A stretch of DNA of 64,000 nt, from positions 2,970,501 through 3,034,500 of the forward strand of contig NZ_CP011477.1 of NCBI RefSeq assembly GCF_001010805.1. The letters are read 5' to 3'. The position numbers and the translations under genes were made by a program. Each line of letters begins with the position of its first letter. Positions within the stretch are counted from its first letter, which is position 1. Positions 9,067-18,648 of the stretch are shown piece by piece. Origin of the DNA: Spongiibacter sp. IMCC21906. Lineage in GTDB: Bacteria > Pseudomonadota > Gammaproteobacteria > Pseudomonadales > Spongiibacteraceae. Under the pieces are notes generated by a model. The model was given only the letters and a program-made list of their open reading frames with translations, had not been told where the DNA came from and did no database searches.

Positions 9067-10548
9067 TTGGCCGGAGAAGGTTCGTTGTCGACGATGCTAA
9101 ATTGGTTTAATGCCGATCTCGCCACCTTTGCGGCAGCGTTATATGCTCTGTTTTCAGTGCTGGGCATCTTATCCGCACTGGAGGCGATCCTAAAAACCCG
9201 TACCGCTCAGGGCGCGGCAGCATGGGCGATTGTATTGGTGGGTATGCCCATTGTGTTCGTGCCCCTCTATTGGGTGTTTGGCCGTCGCAAGTTTCGCGGC
9301 TACGCCATGGCCAAGCGCAGCGCCAATGCAGAAATCGCCCGCATTGCCCATAGCTTAGGCAATGATTTTGACGACTTTCGTCCAGAGGGTAGCGCCACCT
9401 ACCAAATGCGGGGATTAGAGCAGCTCACTGCCCTGCCCTTTAGCTGTGGCAATAGCGCTGAACTGCTCATTGACGGCGACCGGGCCTTCAATAATATGTT
9501 TGCCCATATCCGTAACGCTCAAGACTATATACTGCTTGAATATTATATTATTCGTGACGACAGTATCGGCCAGGAGCTCGCCGACTTACTCATAGAAAAG
9601 GCCGCTAGCGGCGTGGCGATATACTGCATTTACGACGAAATTGGCAGCTTTCAACTATCCCGACGCTACCTGCAAAAACTCCGCAAAGGCGGGATAAAGG
9701 TCACTGCTTTTAACAGCACCAAAGGTCTGGGAAACCGCCTGCAGCTGAATTTCAGAAACCACCGCAAAATTCTCATAGTCGACGGTAAATACTGCAGTAT
9801 TGGCGGCATGAATATTGGCGATGAATACCGCCACCGTCATCCAAAGCTAAGCCCGTGGCGAGACACCAGTCTCAGCATTAGCGGCCCAGCCATACAGGCC
9901 GTACAACTGGCCTTTGCAGAAGACTGGTATTGGGCCTGCGAAGAGTTGCCAACACTGAACTGGCAAGTCAAAGCCTGCGATGCCAGTCATCACGGCAGCA
10001 ATTACGATAGTTTGATTCTCGCCTCTGGACCCGCCGATACGGTTGATAGCTGCGCGCTGATGTTTCTTGATCTCATCCACCAAGCAAGAGACCGGCTCTG
10101 GATTGTCAGCCCTTACTTTGTTCCTGATGCACCGGTAATTCTCGCCTTGCAACTTGCCGCCATGCGGGGGGTGGATGTTCGGATTATGTTGCCCAAAAAT
10201 CCTGATAAATTACTCATACAGCTCTCTTCTTATTCGGCAATAAAAGAGACAATGGCAAAAGGCGTACAGTTTTATTACTACCAAAAAGGCTTTCTTCACC
10301 AAAAAGTCATGTTGGTAGATGAAGAATTGGCCATGGTCGGCACCGCCAATTTAGACAACCGCTCATTCAGGCTAAACTTTGAAATCTGTGCATTAATCCA
10401 TAACCGAGATTTTGCCATTAAAATGGAAACCATGCTGCAACACGACTTAGATGCCTGCCGTCAGCTACTGCCCAGAGAAGTCGCCAACTGGAGCTTTTTT
10501 CGACGACTGGTAAGTCGCTGCGCCTATCTATTTGCGCCGCTGCAATGA
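9067..10548 (+). CDS. cls: Cardiolipin synthase
   Basis: This is a phospholipase D-superfamily cardiolipin synthase of about 493 residues. Two N-terminal membrane segments (about 15-35 and 50-70) anchor it to the inner membrane. Two HKD motifs follow: HRKILIVD with His232, and HQKVMLVD with His411, each trailed by the GGMN or GTAN glycine/asparagine block. It joins two phosphatidylglycerols, or a related pair, into cardiolipin. The TTG at 9067 or an ATG at 9094 could be the start; AAGGA about 12 bases before the TTG favours the former slightly. Its stop codon overlaps the start of the pqiA-like gene (ATGA), so synthesis of the lipid enzyme is coupled to that of the transport proteins. Confidence 0.92.
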   Translation: MAGEGSLSTMLNWFNADLATFAAALYALFSVLGILSALEAILKTRTAQGAAAWAIVLVGMPIVFVPLYWVFGRRKFRGYAMAKRSANAEIARIAHSLGNDFDDFRPEGSATYQMRGLEQLTALPFSCGNSAELLIDGDRAFNNMFAHIRNAQDYILLEYYIIRDDSIGQELADLLIEKAASGVAIYCIYDEIGSFQLSRRYLQKLRKGGIKVTAFNSTKGLGNRLQLNFRNHRKILIVDGKYCSIGGMNIGDEYRHRHPKLSPWRDTSLSISGPAIQAVQLAFAEDWYWACEELPTLNWQVKACDASHHGSNYDSLILASGPADTVDSCALMFLDLIHQARDRLWIVSPYFVPDAPVILALQLAAMRGVDVRIMLPKNPDKLLIQLSSYSAIKETMAKGVQFYYYQKGFLHQKVMLVDEELAMVGTANLDNRSFRLNFEICALIHNRDFAIKMETMLQHDLDACRQLLPREVANWSFFRRLVSRCAYLFAPLQ

Positions 10549-11165
10549 CCCCCATCCGCCCAGACAAACTCTGCGCCTGCCCCGATTGCGACCTGTTGCT
10601 AGATGCCCTCGACGACAAGAGCAGAAATCAGCAACGCTGCCCCCGTTGCAACGCCCTGCTGCTAGCCGAACATAGAGGCCCCAGCAACCTCGCTTTAGCT
10701 GCGGCGGTCAGTGGTTTGATTCTGTTTGTGCCCGCAATAACCCTGCCCATCATGGAAGTAAATATGGTGGGCCGATATGGCAGTCACTCGCTGTTGAGTG
10801 GTATCGAGCGTCTGCTTATTGAAGGCGAAACGGCACTTTCTGTACTGGTTTTACTGTGCTCGATCGCCGCCCCTTTTTTACAGCTTTTTCTGACGGCGTT
10901 AATTTGCCTCTGTATCAACCGCCGTCGCTACCCCAATCATTTCCCCACCTTGCTTAAAGTCAGCCATTGGATGCAGGAATGGAGCATGCTGGAAGTCTTT
11001 GCCATGGGCGCATTGGTGGCGTATATCAAAATGATGGACCCCGGCGAAGTAAACCTGGCTAACGGCGCATGGTGCGTGGCCGGGCTGTTAATCTGTCTCA
11101 TTGTTACCAGCCAACACTTCCATCAACATAGTGCCTGGCGATATTGGTCGGAGCGCAACTCATGA
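10545..11165 (+). CDS. pqiA: PqiA/LetA-like membrane protein, N-terminal half
   Basis: This 206-residue protein corresponds to the first half of PqiA/YebS (LetA). It has a zinc-ribbon of two CX2C pairs (CPDC near residue 12, CPRC near 32), then four membrane segments. The block LPIMEVNMVGRYGSHSLLSGI is characteristic. In Escherichia coli the two halves form one protein of about 415 residues that works with an MCE protein in lipid movement across the envelope. Here the halves are separate genes. Both its start and stop overlap neighbours by ATGA, placing it in a tightly coupled operon. Confidence 0.88.
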   Translation: MTPIRPDKLCACPDCDLLLDALDDKSRNQQRCPRCNALLLAEHRGPSNLALAAAVSGLILFVPAITLPIMEVNMVGRYGSHSLLSGIERLLIEGETALSVLVLLCSIAAPFLQLFLTALICLCINRRRYPNHFPTLLKVSHWMQEWSMLEVFAMGALVAYIKMMDPGEVNLANGAWCVAGLLICLIVTSQHFHQHSAWRYWSERNS

Positions 11166-11779
11166 CAACGGCCAAAGAAATGGGGCTAGCCCGCTGCCAT
11201 CACTGCGGCCAGCTTAGCGAATTAATAGATACCGCCCCCGACCAACAAGCTCTTTGTCCTTGCTGCCATGGCGAACTGCATTTTCGCCAACCCCGAAGTC
11301 TCCAGCGTACTTGGGCATTCTCTTTAGCCGCCGTGGTAATGTTAATTCCGGCTAATGTGTTGCCTATTTTAACGGTGATTCATTTTGGCAAAGGCGAACC
11401 CGACACCATCATGTCGGGCATTATTGACCTCTGGCAATCAGGGCTATGGGTGATTTCCGCTATCGTTTTTATTGCCAGTATCCTCGTCCCCGTTATTAAG
11501 CTACTGGCCATTGTTTTACTTCTATTGGTGGTGCATTGGCGACTGCCCCTCAACAAGGCTCAATGTATTTTGCTGTATCGTTTTGTTCATTTTATTGGTC
11601 GCTGGTCCATGCTGGATTTATTCATGATTTCAATTCTGGTGACCTTGGTTCATCTCGGCAATATTGCCAATGTAGAGAGTGGCCCCGGAGCAACCGCCTT
11701 TGGCGCCGTGGTAGTGTTAACGATTTTTGCCGCCAACAGCTTTGACCCGCGATTGATTTGGGATTTAGAACATGAGTGA
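11162..11779 (+). CDS. pqiA: PqiA/LetA-like membrane protein, C-terminal half
   Basis: This 205-residue protein is homologous to the second half of PqiA/LetA. It has its own zinc ribbon (CHHC near 12, CPCC near 34), the VLPILTVIHFGKGEPDTIMSGI block and four membrane segments. The ATG at 11162 overlaps the previous stop, so this is a natural gene boundary and not a frameshift. The 3' end overlaps the MCE gene by 8 bases. It probably pairs with the preceding half to make the inner-membrane partner of the MCE tube. Confidence 0.88.
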   Translation: MTTAKEMGLARCHHCGQLSELIDTAPDQQALCPCCHGELHFRQPRSLQRTWAFSLAAVVMLIPANVLPILTVIHFGKGEPDTIMSGIIDLWQSGLWVISAIVFIASILVPVIKLLAIVLLLLVVHWRLPLNKAQCILLYRFVHFIGRWSMLDLFMISILVTLVHLGNIANVESGPGATAFGAVVVLTIFAANSFDPRLIWDLEHE

Positions 11780-14081
11780 AAACAACAGACACACTGCGGT
11801 AGTGAAACCCAAACGTGGTATTTCTGCGGTATGGCTACTACCCATTATCGCGCTGGGGATTGCGCTGTGGCTGCTCTATAAAGACATCACCAGTGCTGGT
11901 TTAGAAATCACCGTTTCGTTTGAAAACGGCAGCGGCATCTCTGCTGGCAAAACCCCGGTGATATATCAAGGCATTAATGTCGGCAAGGTCAGTCGTCTCA
12001 ACCTTGATGACGACCTCAGCGGCGTAACCGCAACCATTGAGCTGGACACTCAGATCACTCCGCTTATTAAAAAAAATACTGAGTTCTGGCTGGTCAAACC
12101 GCAAATTTCCCTGTCCGGCGTTTCGGGGCTAGACACTTTGGTCGCGGGCAACTACATCAGCTTCAAGCCCGGCGACGGTAAAGAGGCCGACCGCTTTACG
12201 GCTTTGCCAGAACCCCCGCCCTTTGCCAACAATGCCCCCGGTTTAAAGCTCATTCTTGAGGCAGAACAGCTAGGGTCCATTAGCATCGGCGCGCCGGTGC
12301 TCTTTCAGCAGATTGATGTGGGCGATGTAGAAGGCTATCAACTCAGTGAAAACGGCGTAGAAATCAATCTGCGTTTAGATCCTCAATACACCCATTTGGT
12401 AAACGAAAGCTCTCGGTTCTGGAATCATTCCGGCGTTAAAATTGAGGCTGGACTGCAGGGTATTAACCTTAATGCAGGCTCTATGGCCAGTATCATTGCC
12501 GGAGGTATCGCCTTCGACACCCCCAACAAACAAGCCGAAAAAACCAAAGACGGCCGTCGCTTTACCCTCTACGCCAACCAAGCCTTGGCCAGAGGAAGCC
12601 AATATATCGATATCCATTTTTACAAACCCGATGGCGTAAAAGCAGGCACCAAGGTCAGAATGGAAGGCATAGAAGTCGGTGAGGTAGAGTCCGTCAGTTT
12701 TACAGAAGATGACCCCACCCGTGGCGCCGATGCAAAAGTCCGTATCACCGCCCCAAACCAGCGCTACCTCAACGGCGAAACCCAGTTCTGGCTAGTCACA
12801 CCAGAGGTTTCGGCAAGTGGCATCAGTGGCCTGGATACCCTCATTGGCGGCCCCTATATCGCGATGAAAGTGAATGGCCAAAAAGGCGAGCCCTTAGTTG
12901 CCTACACCGCACTGAACAAACCACCACAAAGCCGCATACAAGCACCAGGCTTACGCTTACGGCTCCACGCCGAAGAACTACACTCGGCCCGAGAAGGCAC
13001 TAAAATATACTTCCGTAAAATCCCTGTGGGCCAGGTAGAAACCGTCGAGTTGACTCGCAAGGGTGTTGAACTGGAAATTTTTATACACCAGCGTTACCAA
13101 CATCTGGTGCACCGAGAATCGCAGTTTTGGAACGCCAGCGGTATTTCTATCAGCGGTGGCCTAAGCGGTTTGGATATTCAAGCAGAGTCTTTAAGCAGCA
13201 TTGTCGCCGGGGGCATTGCTTTTCATACCCCTGAAACAAAAACACCCCAAGCTGCGTGGGAAGGGCTGAAATACACCCTCTACCCCAATTACCAAAGCAC
13301 CTACGCTGAAGAAGGCGAGGATATTAGTATCCGTTTTGACACTGGCAATAGCGTTAACAAAGGTACCGAGCTGAAATATCAAGGGATCAAAGTTGGCGAG
13401 GTCAGTGCAGTTGAACTTAGCAGCGATATGGCTGGCGTTGTTGTGCGTGCACACTTGGTGCCCTCGGCCACAGCATTGGCTAAAGAAGGCAGTCAATTTT
13501 GGGTCGTCAAACCACAACTGGGGCTGGTGGGCACCAGCAACCTAGAAACATTGGTCACCGGCAGTTACATCAGTGTTCGTCCCGGCAGTGGCATGCCCAA
13601 GGACTACTTTACGGGTTTAAATAAACCCCCGGCCATGAAACAACCCAAAGACGGCTTAAACCTGGTGCTCAGTGCGGACCAGCGCGGCTCTATTAAAGAA
13701 GGGGTCAAAGTATTTTACCGAGACATTCCCGTGGGCGAAGTATTTGCCTACGAGCTGTCGGCAGATGCCAAAAAGACGCTTATCCATATCAATATTCAAC
13801 CTCGCTTTGCAGGCCTGGTTAGAAGCAATAGCGAATTCTGGAATTCCAGTGGCGTTGCCGTTAAGTTTGGTCTTTTTAGTGGCACGACCATTCGCAGCAA
13901 ATCATTAGAATCCTTATTGGAAGGCGGCATCGCCTTTGCCACCCCTAACGAAGACAGCATGGGCGGCATTGCCGCACAAGGCAGTCAATTTAAACTCCAC
14001 GGCTCAGTTGAGCCCGAATGGTTGCAATGGTCACCAAGTATTCACATCCCCAGCACAGAGGACACCGAGAACCGACGATAA
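11772..14081 (+). CDS. pqiB: Multi-domain MCE protein, PqiB/LetB type
   Basis: This 769-residue protein has one N-terminal membrane helix (about 19-36) and a periplasmic part built of six MCE repeats beginning near residues 43, 156, 262, 392, 498 and 627. Each repeat carries the marker V-x-Y/F-x-G/D-I-x-V-G-x-V, for example VIYQGINVGKV and VFYRDIPVGEV. E. coli PqiB has three such domains and LetB has seven; both form tubes or needles that carry lipids between the membranes. Six is intermediate. It follows two PqiA-half genes and cls in one overlapping unit. Confidence 0.9.
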   Translation: MSENNRHTAVVKPKRGISAVWLLPIIALGIALWLLYKDITSAGLEITVSFENGSGISAGKTPVIYQGINVGKVSRLNLDDDLSGVTATIELDTQITPLIKKNTEFWLVKPQISLSGVSGLDTLVAGNYISFKPGDGKEADRFTALPEPPPFANNAPGLKLILEAEQLGSISIGAPVLFQQIDVGDVEGYQLSENGVEINLRLDPQYTHLVNESSRFWNHSGVKIEAGLQGINLNAGSMASIIAGGIAFDTPNKQAEKTKDGRRFTLYANQALARGSQYIDIHFYKPDGVKAGTKVRMEGIEVGEVESVSFTEDDPTRGADAKVRITAPNQRYLNGETQFWLVTPEVSASGISGLDTLIGGPYIAMKVNGQKGEPLVAYTALNKPPQSRIQAPGLRLRLHAEELHSAREGTKIYFRKIPVGQVETVELTRKGVELEIFIHQRYQHLVHRESQFWNASGISISGGLSGLDIQAESLSSIVAGGIAFHTPETKTPQAAWEGLKYTLYPNYQSTYAEEGEDISIRFDTGNSVNKGTELKYQGIKVGEVSAVELSSDMAGVVVRAHLVPSATALAKEGSQFWVVKPQLGLVGTSNLETLVTGSYISVRPGSGMPKDYFTGLNKPPAMKQPKDGLNLVLSADQRGSIKEGVKVFYRDIPVGEVFAYELSADAKKTLIHINIQPRFAGLVRSNSEFWNSSGVAVKFGLFSGTTIRSKSLESLLEGGIAFATPNEDSMGGIAAQGSQFKLHGSVEPEWLQWSPSIHIPSTEDTENRR

Positions 14082-14200: not shown

Positions 14201-15502
14201 TTGAGTACAAAAACCAAGCAAATATTCGGCGTTCTGCTAATTATCGCTATTGGCATCGTTATCGCAGCGGCATTGTATTGGTTGCGTCCTGCACCTGAGC
14301 AGGTCCACATTCAACAAGCCCCCTTGCTAGTGGATGTGGCCGTAGCAACCGAGCAATCGCTACGCATTCACGTTCGTTCCCAAGGTAGCGTCCAAGCCCG
14401 CACGGCGACTAATTTAGTGTCAGAAGTCGCGGGGAAAGTCGTGTCTCTTGCAGACGGTTTTGAAGCCGGCGCACTGGTACAAAAAGGCGATGTTCTGCTA
14501 CAGATAGATAACCGTAATTACCAAGCTCAACTAAAGCGCGCCGAAGCCGCCGTAGCCACCGCTGAAAGCAATCTTTCTCAAGAACAGGGCCGGAGCGCCG
14601 TTGCCAAGAACGATTATGAAAAGTATCCCCGCAGTAAAGTAACTAGCAGTGCCAAAGCGTTAGCACTGCGCCACCCCCAGCTCGCAGAAGCACAGGCGAA
14701 TCTCGATGCAGCACAAGCCGACTTATACAGCGCCCAAACCGATTTAGCCCGCACCACAATTCGAGCCCCCTATCGCGCCATTATCCGCAGCCGCAATGTG
14801 GATCTTGGGCAATACCTCACCGTTGGCGGCCAAGTGGGCGAACTGTTCTCGGTAGATCGCGCCGAAGTACGCTTACCGATAGCGGACTCCAAACTCGACT
14901 ACCTAAACCTGCCTGCATTAAGTGATGGCAGCGCCCAAAACAATGTTAACGATGATCCCGACAAAAATACCGACAACACCGTAAACAAGAATCAGAGCAC
15001 AGCGACACTGAGCGACGAACAAGGTCGGCAATGGCGTGCAACCATAGTCCGCAGCGAAGCCGTGTTAGATGAACGCAGTCGGGTGCTTTTTTTAGTGGCT
15101 AGAGTAGAAGACCCATACAGTTTGAATAGCGACACGCCCCTGCTTCGGGTCGGCAGCTTTGTCAACGCCAGTATTGAAGGTCGACTGTTTGAGAATTTAA
15201 TCGTCGTTCCTCGGCATATTTTGCGCACCGGCAATAAACTCTGGGTGGTCGACTCACAAGACCAATTGCAAAACCGCAGCGTGTCCATGCTGAAAACAGA
15301 CGGCGACTTTGTTTACATTACCGATGGCGTTCAAGCCGGTGAGCGTATTGCTCTTGCCGCACTTCCCAGCGCCATTGCGGGCAGCAAGGTCCGCATCCAC
15401 TCAGAGACTCCTAGCACCGAACTGATCGCCAATAACAAACGGAAAGCAAAAAATCAGCAGGACCCGAGGAATAATGACCACAGGGATACGCCATCCCGAT
15501 GA
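14201..15502 (+). CDS. RND efflux periplasmic adaptor (MFP) subunit
   Basis: This is a 433-residue membrane fusion protein. A single N-terminal membrane helix spans about residues 6-26, followed by the barrel-sandwich hybrid (SEVAGKVVSLADGFEAGALVQKGDVLLQID, shown by GxV and KGDVL blocks), a coiled coil rich in Ala/Gln (about 105-180), and a beta-barrel/membrane-proximal part. It links an RND pump to an outer-membrane channel. The proposed start is TTG at 14201, since no ATG in frame precedes the membrane helix. A short polar Asn/Asp-rich insertion lies near residues 245-270. The pump gene overlaps its stop by ATGA. Confidence 0.87.
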   Translation: MSTKTKQIFGVLLIIAIGIVIAAALYWLRPAPEQVHIQQAPLLVDVAVATEQSLRIHVRSQGSVQARTATNLVSEVAGKVVSLADGFEAGALVQKGDVLLQIDNRNYQAQLKRAEAAVATAESNLSQEQGRSAVAKNDYEKYPRSKVTSSAKALALRHPQLAEAQANLDAAQADLYSAQTDLARTTIRAPYRAIIRSRNVDLGQYLTVGGQVGELFSVDRAEVRLPIADSKLDYLNLPALSDGSAQNNVNDDPDKNTDNTVNKNQSTATLSDEQGRQWRATIVRSEAVLDERSRVLFLVARVEDPYSLNSDTPLLRVGSFVNASIEGRLFENLIVVPRHILRTGNKLWVVDSQDQLQNRSVSMLKTDGDFVYITDGVQAGERIALAALPSAIAGSKVRIHSETPSTELIANNKRKAKNQQDPRNNDHRDTPSR

Positions 15503-18500
15503 GTGAGGAGCGACTCAACACGCGTAAAGGTGTGATTCCTTGGTTTGCCCGCAACTCCGTTGCCGCCAACTTGTTGATGTTTGCCATTTTGCTGATTGGT
15601 CTGGGCTCAGCGTTTACTATTCAAAAAACCATTCAACCTGAATTCGAAATCAACGTTGTTCAAATCACCGTTATTTACCCCGGTGCCACACCAGAAGAAG
15701 TTGAGCGCGGCGTTATTCTTAAAATTGAAGAAGCTCTGGCCGACATCGATGCCATCAAAACCCTCGACGCCACCGCTGACGAATCACTGGCAACCCTGAA
15801 AGCAGAAATTTACGAAGACAATGATATTAATGTCGTGGTCGATGAAATTAAAAGTGCCATCGACGCTATCGTTAGCTTTCCCGCTGAAATAGAACGCCCC
15901 GTGGTCAAGCAGCTTGAGTTTAATAATCACACCATTGTGCTACAGCTCTACGGCAATCTGGACGAACGGGGCATGAAGGAGCTAGCCGAACAGCTAAAAC
16001 AAGAGCTACTGCAAAAAGACGATGTTGCTTTTGTCCAAATAAATGGCGCTAGAGACTTTGAGATTTCCATAGAAATTTCTGAGCATCGCCTGATGAAATA
16101 CCACCTCACCTTAGGCGAGGTGGCCGATGCCATCAGCAGAAGTTCACTGGATGTGCCCGCAGGCTCCTTGAGAACCGAAAATGGCAACATCATGCTCCGC
16201 ACCCGGGCTCAAGCCCGGCAACAGCAGGAGTTTGAAAACCTCATACTCATCAGCTACCCCGATGGCACCCGGCTAACCTTGGGCGATGTCGCGACGATTC
16301 GAGATGAGTTTGTCGAAGAAGATAGCTTCTCGTATTTCAACAGCCAGCCCAGCATTGGTATGCAGGTATTCAGCATTGGCAAGCAAGACTTGATTGACGT
16401 CTCCACCGCTGCCAAGGAGTTTGTCGCAGAGCAGCAAGGCCGTCTGCCGGAAGGGGTCAAGCTAGATCACTGGGCCGACATCAGCTATTACCTTGAAGGC
16501 CGTATGGACATGATGCTGAAAAACCTCAGCATGGGTGCGCTGCTGGTTTTTATCGTGCTGGGTATGTTCCTCAATATCAAACTGGCCTTTTGGGTGATGG
16601 TCGGGCTGCCCATCTGCTTTCTGGGCACCTTTGCACTGATGCCTACCGTCGGCATTACCCTCAATATGCTCAGCCTGTTTGGCTTTATTCTGGTGCTGGG
16701 GATTGTCGTCGACGACGCCATTATTATTGGCGAAAGCGCCTATTCTGAAGCGGAAAAATACGGCCATTCCAAAGACAGTGTTATTCGTGGTGCTTTGCGA
16801 GTCGCCACGCCGGCTACCTTTGGCGTGCTAACCACCATCATGGCCTTCTCGCCTACACTATTTTCAGACGGTGCCTTTTCACCGTTTCCAGAATCTGTAG
16901 GCTGGGTCGTCATACTCTGTCTTGGGTTTTCGCTATTGGAATCCAAATGGATCCTACCCGCTCACCTTGCCCACAGCCGTCCTGCCACCGGCGCAATCTG
17001 GCAAAAACTCGACCGCTTACCCAAGGCTTGTAATGGCTGGCTGAATAATTTTGTTGAGCGCCGTTATCGACCCTTTATCCACCGCGCCATCAAACAACGT
17101 TATATCACCGGTGCCATCTTTACCGCCATGTTGATCATCACTACGGGCTTGATTGCTGGAGGCATTGTGCGTTTTGTTTTTATCCCGGAAGTCCCCAGCG
17201 ACTTCCTGCAAGCAAAACTGGAGATGGTGGAAGGCAGTGCCGACGCCCAAACCCGCCAGGCCTTTGAACAGATAGACAATGCATTGCGGGACATTGATCA
17301 AGCCTACCAATCAGAGCATGCCAATAACGAAGAAAAGCACCTGTTCAAACACGTGGCGGCCTACGGTAGCCAAGGTCGCTTAGTGAACTTTATGGTAGAA
17401 CTGAGCAAGAATGAAAACCGGGATATTGATGGCAACGAAATCGCCAGGCGCTGGCGTGAAGCCATCGGCGAAATTCCCGGTGCCCGAGTGTTATCCGTTA
17501 GCGCCGCCGATCAGACGACGGGGCCAGCCATTTCGATCAAGCTCGCCAGCAATAATCCCCGCGAACTGGAACTGGCTGGCAGACGCTTTGAAGAAGCACT
17601 GACTCATTACAAAGGCGTCTACGATATTCGCAACAGTGCCAGCGCCGTGCGAGACGAAATTGTCTTAGAGTTAAAACCCAGTGCAGAAAACCTCGGGCTC
17701 TCAGCGGCGGTGCTGGGACGACAGGTTCGCAATGCCTTTTATGGCGCCGAAGCCCAACGCGTGCAGCGCGGCAACAACGAAGTAAAAGTGATGGTGCGCT
17801 ATCCTCGCGATGAACGCAAAGCCATTTCTGACCTGCAAAATATGTATATACGCGGCAGCGAAGGCGATTTCATTCCCCTCAGTGCCGTCGCCAATGTGCA
17901 CATCGAGCCTGGCTACAGTAAAACCACCCGGGTTGACGGTGAGCGCGCGCTGACCATTACCGCCGAAGTCGATAAAGAAACAACCCAGCCCACTAGCGTC
18001 ACCAGTTCCGTTATTGCAGACGTTTCTGAGCAACTAAAAGCCGATGCCCCCAGCGTATCGGTCTCACTTAGCGGTGAAAGCGAAGAAACGGGCAAATTAT
18101 TTAGCAGCTTAATGCAGGGCTTCGCTATTGCCCTATTGGGTATTTTTGGTCTGCTGGCAGTCCCCCTGCGCTCGTATCTGCAACCGCTGATTATTATGGG
18201 CGTTATCCCTTTTGGCATTATTGGCGCGGTATGCGGCCATCTGTTCTTAGATATGGCATTCAGCATGATGTCATTTTTCGGCATCATCGCCTTATCCGGT
18301 GTCGTGGTGAATGACAGCTTGATTATGGTGGACTTTATCAACGCCGCCATCGCCAGAGGCGAACCTTTGCATAAAGCCGTGGTGGACGCGGGGTGTAGCC
18401 GCTTCAGGGCTATCTTGCTAACCTCCCTCACCACCTTTTTTGGCTTGCTACCCATGCTGCTGGAAGATAGCCTTCAAGCCCAGTTTGTCATTCCCATGGC

Positions 18501-18648
18501 GGTGTCTTTAGGCTTTGGTATTGTCTTCGCCACCGTGATCACACTGATCCTGATTCCCTGTTTGTATATTGTACTTGACGATTTTAAATCCCTAGCAGGG
18601 AAAGGCGTCGAAGAAAATCAAGCAAACCAAGCAGAAACGTCCCCCTAA
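15499..18648 (+). CDS. RND efflux permease (AcrB/HAE1-like)
   Basis: This 1049-residue inner-membrane pump has twelve expected membrane helices in two repeats. The first helix is at about 18-36, and the proton-relay pair Asp405-Asp406 lies in GIVVDDAIIIGES, equivalent to AcrB 407/408. The two large periplasmic loops and the second-half GVVVNDSLIMVD block are present. Sequence details (NSVAANLLM, TIQPEFEINVVQITVIYPGA) match the branch of HAE1-like pumps often found beside lipid or cell-envelope genes. No outer-membrane factor is encoded nearby. It is translationally coupled to the adaptor. Confidence 0.92.
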   Translation: MSEERLNTRKGVIPWFARNSVAANLLMFAILLIGLGSAFTIQKTIQPEFEINVVQITVIYPGATPEEVERGVILKIEEALADIDAIKTLDATADESLATLKAEIYEDNDINVVVDEIKSAIDAIVSFPAEIERPVVKQLEFNNHTIVLQLYGNLDERGMKELAEQLKQELLQKDDVAFVQINGARDFEISIEISEHRLMKYHLTLGEVADAISRSSLDVPAGSLRTENGNIMLRTRAQARQQQEFENLILISYPDGTRLTLGDVATIRDEFVEEDSFSYFNSQPSIGMQVFSIGKQDLIDVSTAAKEFVAEQQGRLPEGVKLDHWADISYYLEGRMDMMLKNLSMGALLVFIVLGMFLNIKLAFWVMVGLPICFLGTFALMPTVGITLNMLSLFGFILVLGIVVDDAIIIGESAYSEAEKYGHSKDSVIRGALRVATPATFGVLTTIMAFSPTLFSDGAFSPFPESVGWVVILCLGFSLLESKWILPAHLAHSRPATGAIWQKLDRLPKACNGWLNNFVERRYRPFIHRAIKQRYITGAIFTAMLIITTGLIAGGIVRFVFIPEVPSDFLQAKLEMVEGSADAQTRQAFEQIDNALRDIDQAYQSEHANNEEKHLFKHVAAYGSQGRLVNFMVELSKNENRDIDGNEIARRWREAIGEIPGARVLSVSAADQTTGPAISIKLASNNPRELELAGRRFEEALTHYKGVYDIRNSASAVRDEIVLELKPSAENLGLSAAVLGRQVRNAFYGAEAQRVQRGNNEVKVMVRYPRDERKAISDLQNMYIRGSEGDFIPLSAVANVHIEPGYSKTTRVDGERALTITAEVDKETTQPTSVTSSVIADVSEQLKADAPSVSVSLSGESEETGKLFSSLMQGFAIALLGIFGLLAVPLRSYLQPLIIMGVIPFGIIGAVCGHLFLDMAFSMMSFFGIIALSGVVVNDSLIMVDFINAAIARGEPLHKAVVDAGCSRFRAILLTSLTTFFGLLPMLLEDSLQAQFVIPMAVSLGFGIVFATVITLILIPCLYIVLDDFKSLAGKGVEENQANQAETSP

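Follow-up and report, generated by a model that had tools for sequence, protein, structure and literature searches.

A cardiolipin synthase gene heads a predicted LetAB-type transport operon across one genus of Spongiibacteraceae

When a gene for making a lipid stands directly before the genes of a lipid transporter, does the arrangement reveal what the transporter carries? The question is raised by a locus of the gammaproteobacterium Spongiibacter sp. IMCC21906, in which cls, for a predicted cardiolipin synthase, two halves of pqiA and a gene for a protein with six MCE domains lie consecutively on the + strand. The locus is part of a 64,000-nucleotide stretch (the window; positions 2970501-3034500 of contig NZ_CP011477.1 in a 3.48-Mb genome), and all coordinates below are window positions. 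To our knowledge, the in vivo cargo of LetAB, the Escherichia coli system that these transporter genes resemble, is an open question. The initial annotation of the window took the four genes for a dedicated system that makes cardiolipin and moves it, or a related lipid, to the outer membrane, and so for a pointer to the substrate of such transporters. We find that the linkage of cls to letAB-like genes is a genus trait that hardly occurs elsewhere in our samples, and that the gene arrangement alone does not establish cardiolipin as cargo of the tunnel. The likeliest history, to judge from the sequences compared here, is that in the common ancestor of the genus the gene for a housekeeping Cls came, a single time, to stand first in a LetAB-type operon, whose expression it shares.

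A cardiolipin synthase gene precedes a split LetA and a six-domain LetB homologue

The first gene, cls (9067..10548, + strand, TTG start), encodes a 493-residue PLD-type protein that matches PF13091 with 156.4 bits, also matches PF00614 and exceeds the cut-off of the equivalog model TIGR04265 (373.2 against 290). It has two HKD motifs, HRKILIVD (H232) and HQKVMLVD (H411), and an N-terminus that appears hydrophobic. Model and motifs together predict a bacterial cardiolipin synthase of the ClsA type, with the corresponding activity. The stop of cls and the start of the first pqiA half share an ATGA (10545..10548). This half (10545..11165, 206 residues) and the second (11162..11779, 205 residues) each encode two CxxC pairs and match PF04403 with 134.6 and 178.8 bits, respectively (cut-off 23.8 bits); two CxxC-bearing PqiA/LetA domains are thus encoded just upstream of the MCE gene, on two proteins. 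Another ATGA overlap joins the halves (11162..11165), and the second half shares 8 bases (11772..11779) with the MCE gene (11772..14081), whose 769-residue product contains six PF02470 stretches. The initial annotation had the coordinates, order, strand and overlaps of these + strand genes right, and its gene identities, including the split PqiA and the six MCE domains, are borne out by Pfam and NCBIfam matches.

The transporter shares the PqiA and MCE families with PqiABC of E. coli, but its closest solved relatives lie elsewhere. The best solved match of the MCE protein is LetB (YebT), at 462.7 bits, and the match to solved PqiB is much weaker (153.5 bits). The second PqiA half aligns with the corresponding half of E. 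coli LetA (YebS, 9n8w chain A) at 196.8 bits. A search for PqiC (PF03886/DUF330) that was positive in the E. coli control returned no match in this genome, and the MCE domains number six, whereas PqiB has three. By similarity the six domains pair up as three dyads: identity is 34-45% among domains 1, 3 and 5 and 38-46% among domains 2, 4 and 6, with 23-35% between the two sets. On the whole-protein model TIGR00155, the PqiA halves score 94.2 and 208.6, both below the cut-off of 260.35, which is expected because each is half a protein and covers half of the model. The MCE protein passes the NCBIfam equivalog model for PqiB (599.5 against 525) in three stretches, and this score is probably a sum over repeated domains.

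As in E. coli LetAB (YebST), LetA-type protein is encoded upstream of a multi-MCE LetB homologue, and there is no PqiC; the locus differs from its E. coli counterpart in that LetA is split in two, that LetB has six MCE domains where that of E. coli has seven, and that cls heads the operon. Seven tandem MCE domains are described as the type IV architecture (PMC5561183). With six, the protein is a LetB homologue of different domain number, and we have not filed it as type IV. We regard the transporter as LetAB-like, and the family predicts a hexameric tunnel that would move phospholipids. The spacing of the genes suggests that cls is likely co-transcribed with them.

The gene order is conserved throughout the genus

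cls directly precedes pqiA1, pqiA2 and the MCE gene, in identical order, in all 18 genomes of the genus (this genome and 17 relatives). The pairing is thus beyond chance within the genus and not unique to one genome; uniqueness is what the initial annotation had itself named as contrary to its proposal. The Cls proteins of the relatives are 63-75% identical to that of the window. In a tree of 68 rows, built without duplicate or overlapping loci and without weak or short frames, the 18 sequences form one clade with support of 100/100 among the Cls of other families of the order, a topology that indicates a single origin of Cls in the genus.

The junctions between the genes are kept to different degrees. 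By nearest start, the ATGA shared by cls and pqiA1 occurs in this genome only; 16 of the 17 relatives have their nearest ATG or GTG 4-30 bases past the cls stop, and the gap by nearest start is at most 30 bases in 17 of the 18 genomes. In some relatives pqiA1 could also begin within cls, at an in-frame ATG (position -61; L046 and L049), GTG (-29; L050 and L054) or, in others, TTG, so these gaps hold by nearest start. Within the transporter, the two pqiA halves overlap by 4 bases in 15 of the 17 relatives and abut in the other 2, and pqiA2 overlaps the MCE gene by 8 bases in 14; both overlaps recur in all three loci of a sister genus. Because overlaps are kept inside the transporter and not at cls, the argument that coupled translation yields products in fixed proportion fits the transporter subunits, for which the initial annotation is supported, and does not extend to Cls, which it had included.

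This Cls appears to be the cell's housekeeping enzyme and not, as the initial annotation had implied, a copy set aside for transport. Searched with Cls, the genome returns only Cls itself, and each of the 17 relatives has one match. The single other PLDc_2 protein of the genome is a 710-residue frame whose counterpart in a genome of the sister genus (G018; 701 residues) is a polyphosphate kinase. Two CDP-alcohol phosphotransferases are present: the first is PgsA (TIGR00560), with a weak score of 91.0 on the CDP-type ClsA model, far below its cut-off of 240, and the second is a 299-residue frame whose counterpart in another sister-genus genome (G019; 297 residues) is PssA. Cls is therefore the only PLD-type cardiolipin synthase found in this genome, and its relatives outside the genus were never beside pqiA in the Cls loci that we viewed.

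The reading that we favor, and consider fairly probable, is that of an ordinary LetAB-type phospholipid tunnel with the cell's single housekeeping Cls at the head of its operon, the link between the two being regulatory. cls, letA1, letA2 and letB would be carried on one transcript; Cls would make cardiolipin from phosphatidylglycerol in the inner membrane, the LetA pair would load phospholipids out of that membrane and a LetB hexamer would serve as the tunnel across to the outer membrane. The amount of cardiolipin and the capacity of the tunnel would then shift together under the same envelope conditions. Such a regulatory link is likely, given the arrangement of the genes. The same gene order would result, however, if a single event in the ancestor of the genus had put cls ahead of letAB and slow rearrangement had left it there, with no link in regulation or biochemistry. 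Flanking genes without an evident tie to the locus are kept almost as well as cls (hlyIII in 14, a 133-residue frame in 16, a DEAD-box helicase in 16 and the RND pair described below in all 17 of the 17 relatives), so that conservation of the cls link is unexceptional within its block, and the ATGA at the cls/pqiA1 junction is not conserved. Neutral placement fits less easily with a gap of at most 30 bases by nearest start that persists in 17 of 18 genomes, although the Cls proteins of the 17 relatives are only 63-75% identical to that of the window, and with the status of this Cls as the only PLD-type enzyme found, since the promoter of a sole synthase should matter to the cell. We judge neutral placement to be rather unlikely. 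Several observations do weigh against the regulatory reading that we prefer: retention of the cls link is by itself no proof of selection, as synteny is kept across the whole block; in one relative (L047) the cls-pqiA1 gap is about 90 bases by nearest start; and consensus scans for promoters and terminators did no better than shuffled sequences (7 against a mean of 6.8, and 8 against 9.6).

The linkage hardly occurs outside the genus

A conserved operon head in all 18 genomes could also be explained by a dedicated conduit, in which the LetA pair receives cardiolipin from Cls and the six-domain LetB acts as a selective carrier of this lipid to the outer membrane. Loci from more distant organisms bear on this possibility. 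We assembled 56 PqiA loci from outside the family, ten from order-level relatives and 46 from a class sample with E under 1e-40, our own locus excluded, and scanned the fetched stretches with a Cls profile of our own. Contig ends truncate several of the loci, and the set leaves out isolated PqiA-like matches of lower score as well as a pair interrupted by a stop (G211). Judged from open frames, 37 of these loci encode a split PqiA and 17 a fused one, with 2 of neither kind, and 9 of the 56 have MCE frames of 766-1051 residues. Two further candidates for such long MCE frames, L116 and L137, were rejected as the open frame overruns the pqiA gene.

Cls falls within the fetched stretch in only one of the 56 loci and is missing from that of the other 55, which speaks against a dedicated conduit. 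The exception is in genome G287 (L082:7946-13086), where cls lies on the same strand about 200 bases downstream of a row made up of pqiA, an MCE gene and a putative pqiC, so read from its lipoprotein-like product. As in the window, a cardiolipin synthase gene there adjoins an MCE transporter on the same strand; the G287 locus differs in its 548-residue MCE protein, its putative pqiC and the position of cls, which is downstream and not upstream of pqiA. In the 68-row tree the G287 Cls belongs to another branch than that of the genus, and an independent linkage of this kind counts in favor of a dedicated conduit. It is not repeated in the family of G287, which counts the other way: of 54 genomes searched, 11 have a Cls match (G287 included), with no other match above 36% identity, and a second conserved cls-pqi linkage was dropped as a candidate when relatives of PqiA, PqiB or PqiC were found in Cls flanks of up to 1.5 kb only at G287 itself. 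That the linkage recurs just once in 56 PqiA loci from beyond the genus is also in keeping with neutral placement.

The view from the Cls side is similar. In the class and order samples, Cls positions were taken among the matches listed, and in the order sample linkage to pqiA was viewed around the best 30 Cls loci, for most of which the flanks spanned 1.5 kb; five were also viewed in wider stretches. No PqiA or MCE gene lies beside Cls relatives from outside the genus in 29 loci (L013-L041) and 18 loci (L095-L112) with flanks of up to 1.5 kb, nor in 15 wider loci (L042, L043, L074-L081 and L156-L160), many of which repeat the same places. Presence of the two proteins is likewise independent across a class sample of 274 genomes, again to the disadvantage of a dedicated conduit: of the 45 genomes with PqiA (E under 1e-40), 25 also have Cls (E <= 1e-20), against 122 of the 229 that lack PqiA at this threshold (Fisher p = 0.87, relatedness not corrected), and removal of our own genome leaves 24 of 44 (p = 1.0). 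The genome search for cls beside pqiA and pqiB that the initial annotation had called for therefore finds what it anticipated within the genus, and neither the linkage (1 of 56 other PqiA loci) nor co-occurrence beyond it. In the titles and abstract openings of the open-licence PMC papers that our searches returned we found no report of this gene arrangement.

Several Cls loci seen in these searches deserve mention in their own right. A horizontal origin of Cls from Verrucomicrobia was suggested by L042 (54% identity; JAQGNY010000052.1, titled Verrucomicrobiaceae). We dropped it because a 2000-base piece of L042 is present exactly in L156, which belongs to G320, a genome assigned to the same order as the window. 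The two entries represent a single locus, and the title of the record looks wrong. In L043, the Cls of a metagenome-assembled genome labelled Prosthecobacter debontii clusters with Cls of the window's class, by transfer or misbinning. In a 2.0-Mb genome, a Cls-like stretch (G186:C1:1963579-1964982) is interrupted by three in-frame stops and looks like a decayed gene.

A sister genus keeps the tunnel without an adjoining cls

Close relatives also bear on the cargo. In all three loci of the sister genus the transporter genes are present and no cls adjoins them. One of these genomes, G018 (99% complete), keeps the transporter with an MCE protein 62% identical to that of the window. It has no match to the window's Cls, and its only PLDc_2 protein is the polyphosphate kinase mentioned above. 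It contains two CDP-alcohol phosphotransferases and no third: PgsA (190.2 against a cut-off of 109.1 on TIGR00560), which scores a weak 93.4 on the CDP-type ClsA model, far below 240, and a 292-residue frame. Among the other two genomes, the only PLDc_2 frame of G020 (70% complete) has 701 residues, and G019 has a distant Cls (29% identity) located elsewhere. A tunnel that is retained in G018 without a recognisable cardiolipin synthase, whether of the PLD type or as a third CDP-alcohol phosphotransferase, argues against an obligate cardiolipin conduit and undercuts the use of the operon as a pointer to the substrate. This argument rests on one near-complete genome, which may hold an unrecognised synthase. 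The two genera nonetheless offer a natural comparison, with the sole cls in the tunnel operon on one side and a 62% identical tunnel without recognised Cls on the other, and such close relatives permit a specific test of whether the tunnel depends on cardiolipin.

Published work on MCE systems can be read both ways. Loss of the MCE system Mpc in Brucella abortus is reported to leave less cardiolipin in outer-membrane vesicles (PMC12436622), so MCE loss does affect cardiolipin elsewhere, and the authors of a MlaFEDB structure raise cardiolipin as a possible substrate (PMC7790496); both would suit a dedicated conduit. Mpc differs from the system described here in being, by the title of that paper, a Mla-Pqi chimera, and the portion of the text at hand does not mention cls in its operon (PMC12436622). 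Phosphatidylglycerol and phosphatidylethanolamine are described as bound to MlaD, PqiB and YebT (PMC5561183), and for this reason a general substrate fits the tunnel: its cargo would most likely be phospholipids at large, with cardiolipin among them at most. Taken with the linkage data above, a cardiolipin-specific conduit is possible but disfavored, and we consider the hand-over from Cls to LetA that it would entail improbable.

The only PF02470 matches in the genome are the six domains of the LetB-like protein. MlaE was found in none of 21 genomes of the family, our own included, by a search that was positive in the E. coli control and that detected it in 7 of the 17 genomes examined from elsewhere in the order. 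YhdP is present in all three genomes tested (our own, G014 and G018), so the tunnel is not the sole candidate route for phospholipids. In E. coli, the cold sensitivity of a yhdP fadR strain is reported to be suppressed by lower cardiolipin, which links this lipid genetically to another intermembrane route (PMC11226057). One could also suppose that the tunnel became a cardiolipin export route in a genus in which no Mla permease was found, that operon coupling to the sole Cls sets the cardiolipin content of the outer membrane, and that the sister genus represents an ancestral, cardiolipin-free use. We regard this scenario, too, as improbable.

Genes downstream of the transporter

An RND periplasmic adaptor gene (14201..15502, + strand; 140.9 against a cut-off of 94.9 on TIGR01730) follows the MCE gene on the same strand after a gap of 119 bases, and overlaps by 4 bases with the gene for an RND pump (15499..18648, + strand), identified by its match to the ACR_tran family. 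The pair, on which the initial annotation had not remarked, stands downstream of the MCE gene and on its strand in all 17 genus relatives. They are a possible extension of the cls-letAB operon, and the finding stands without them.

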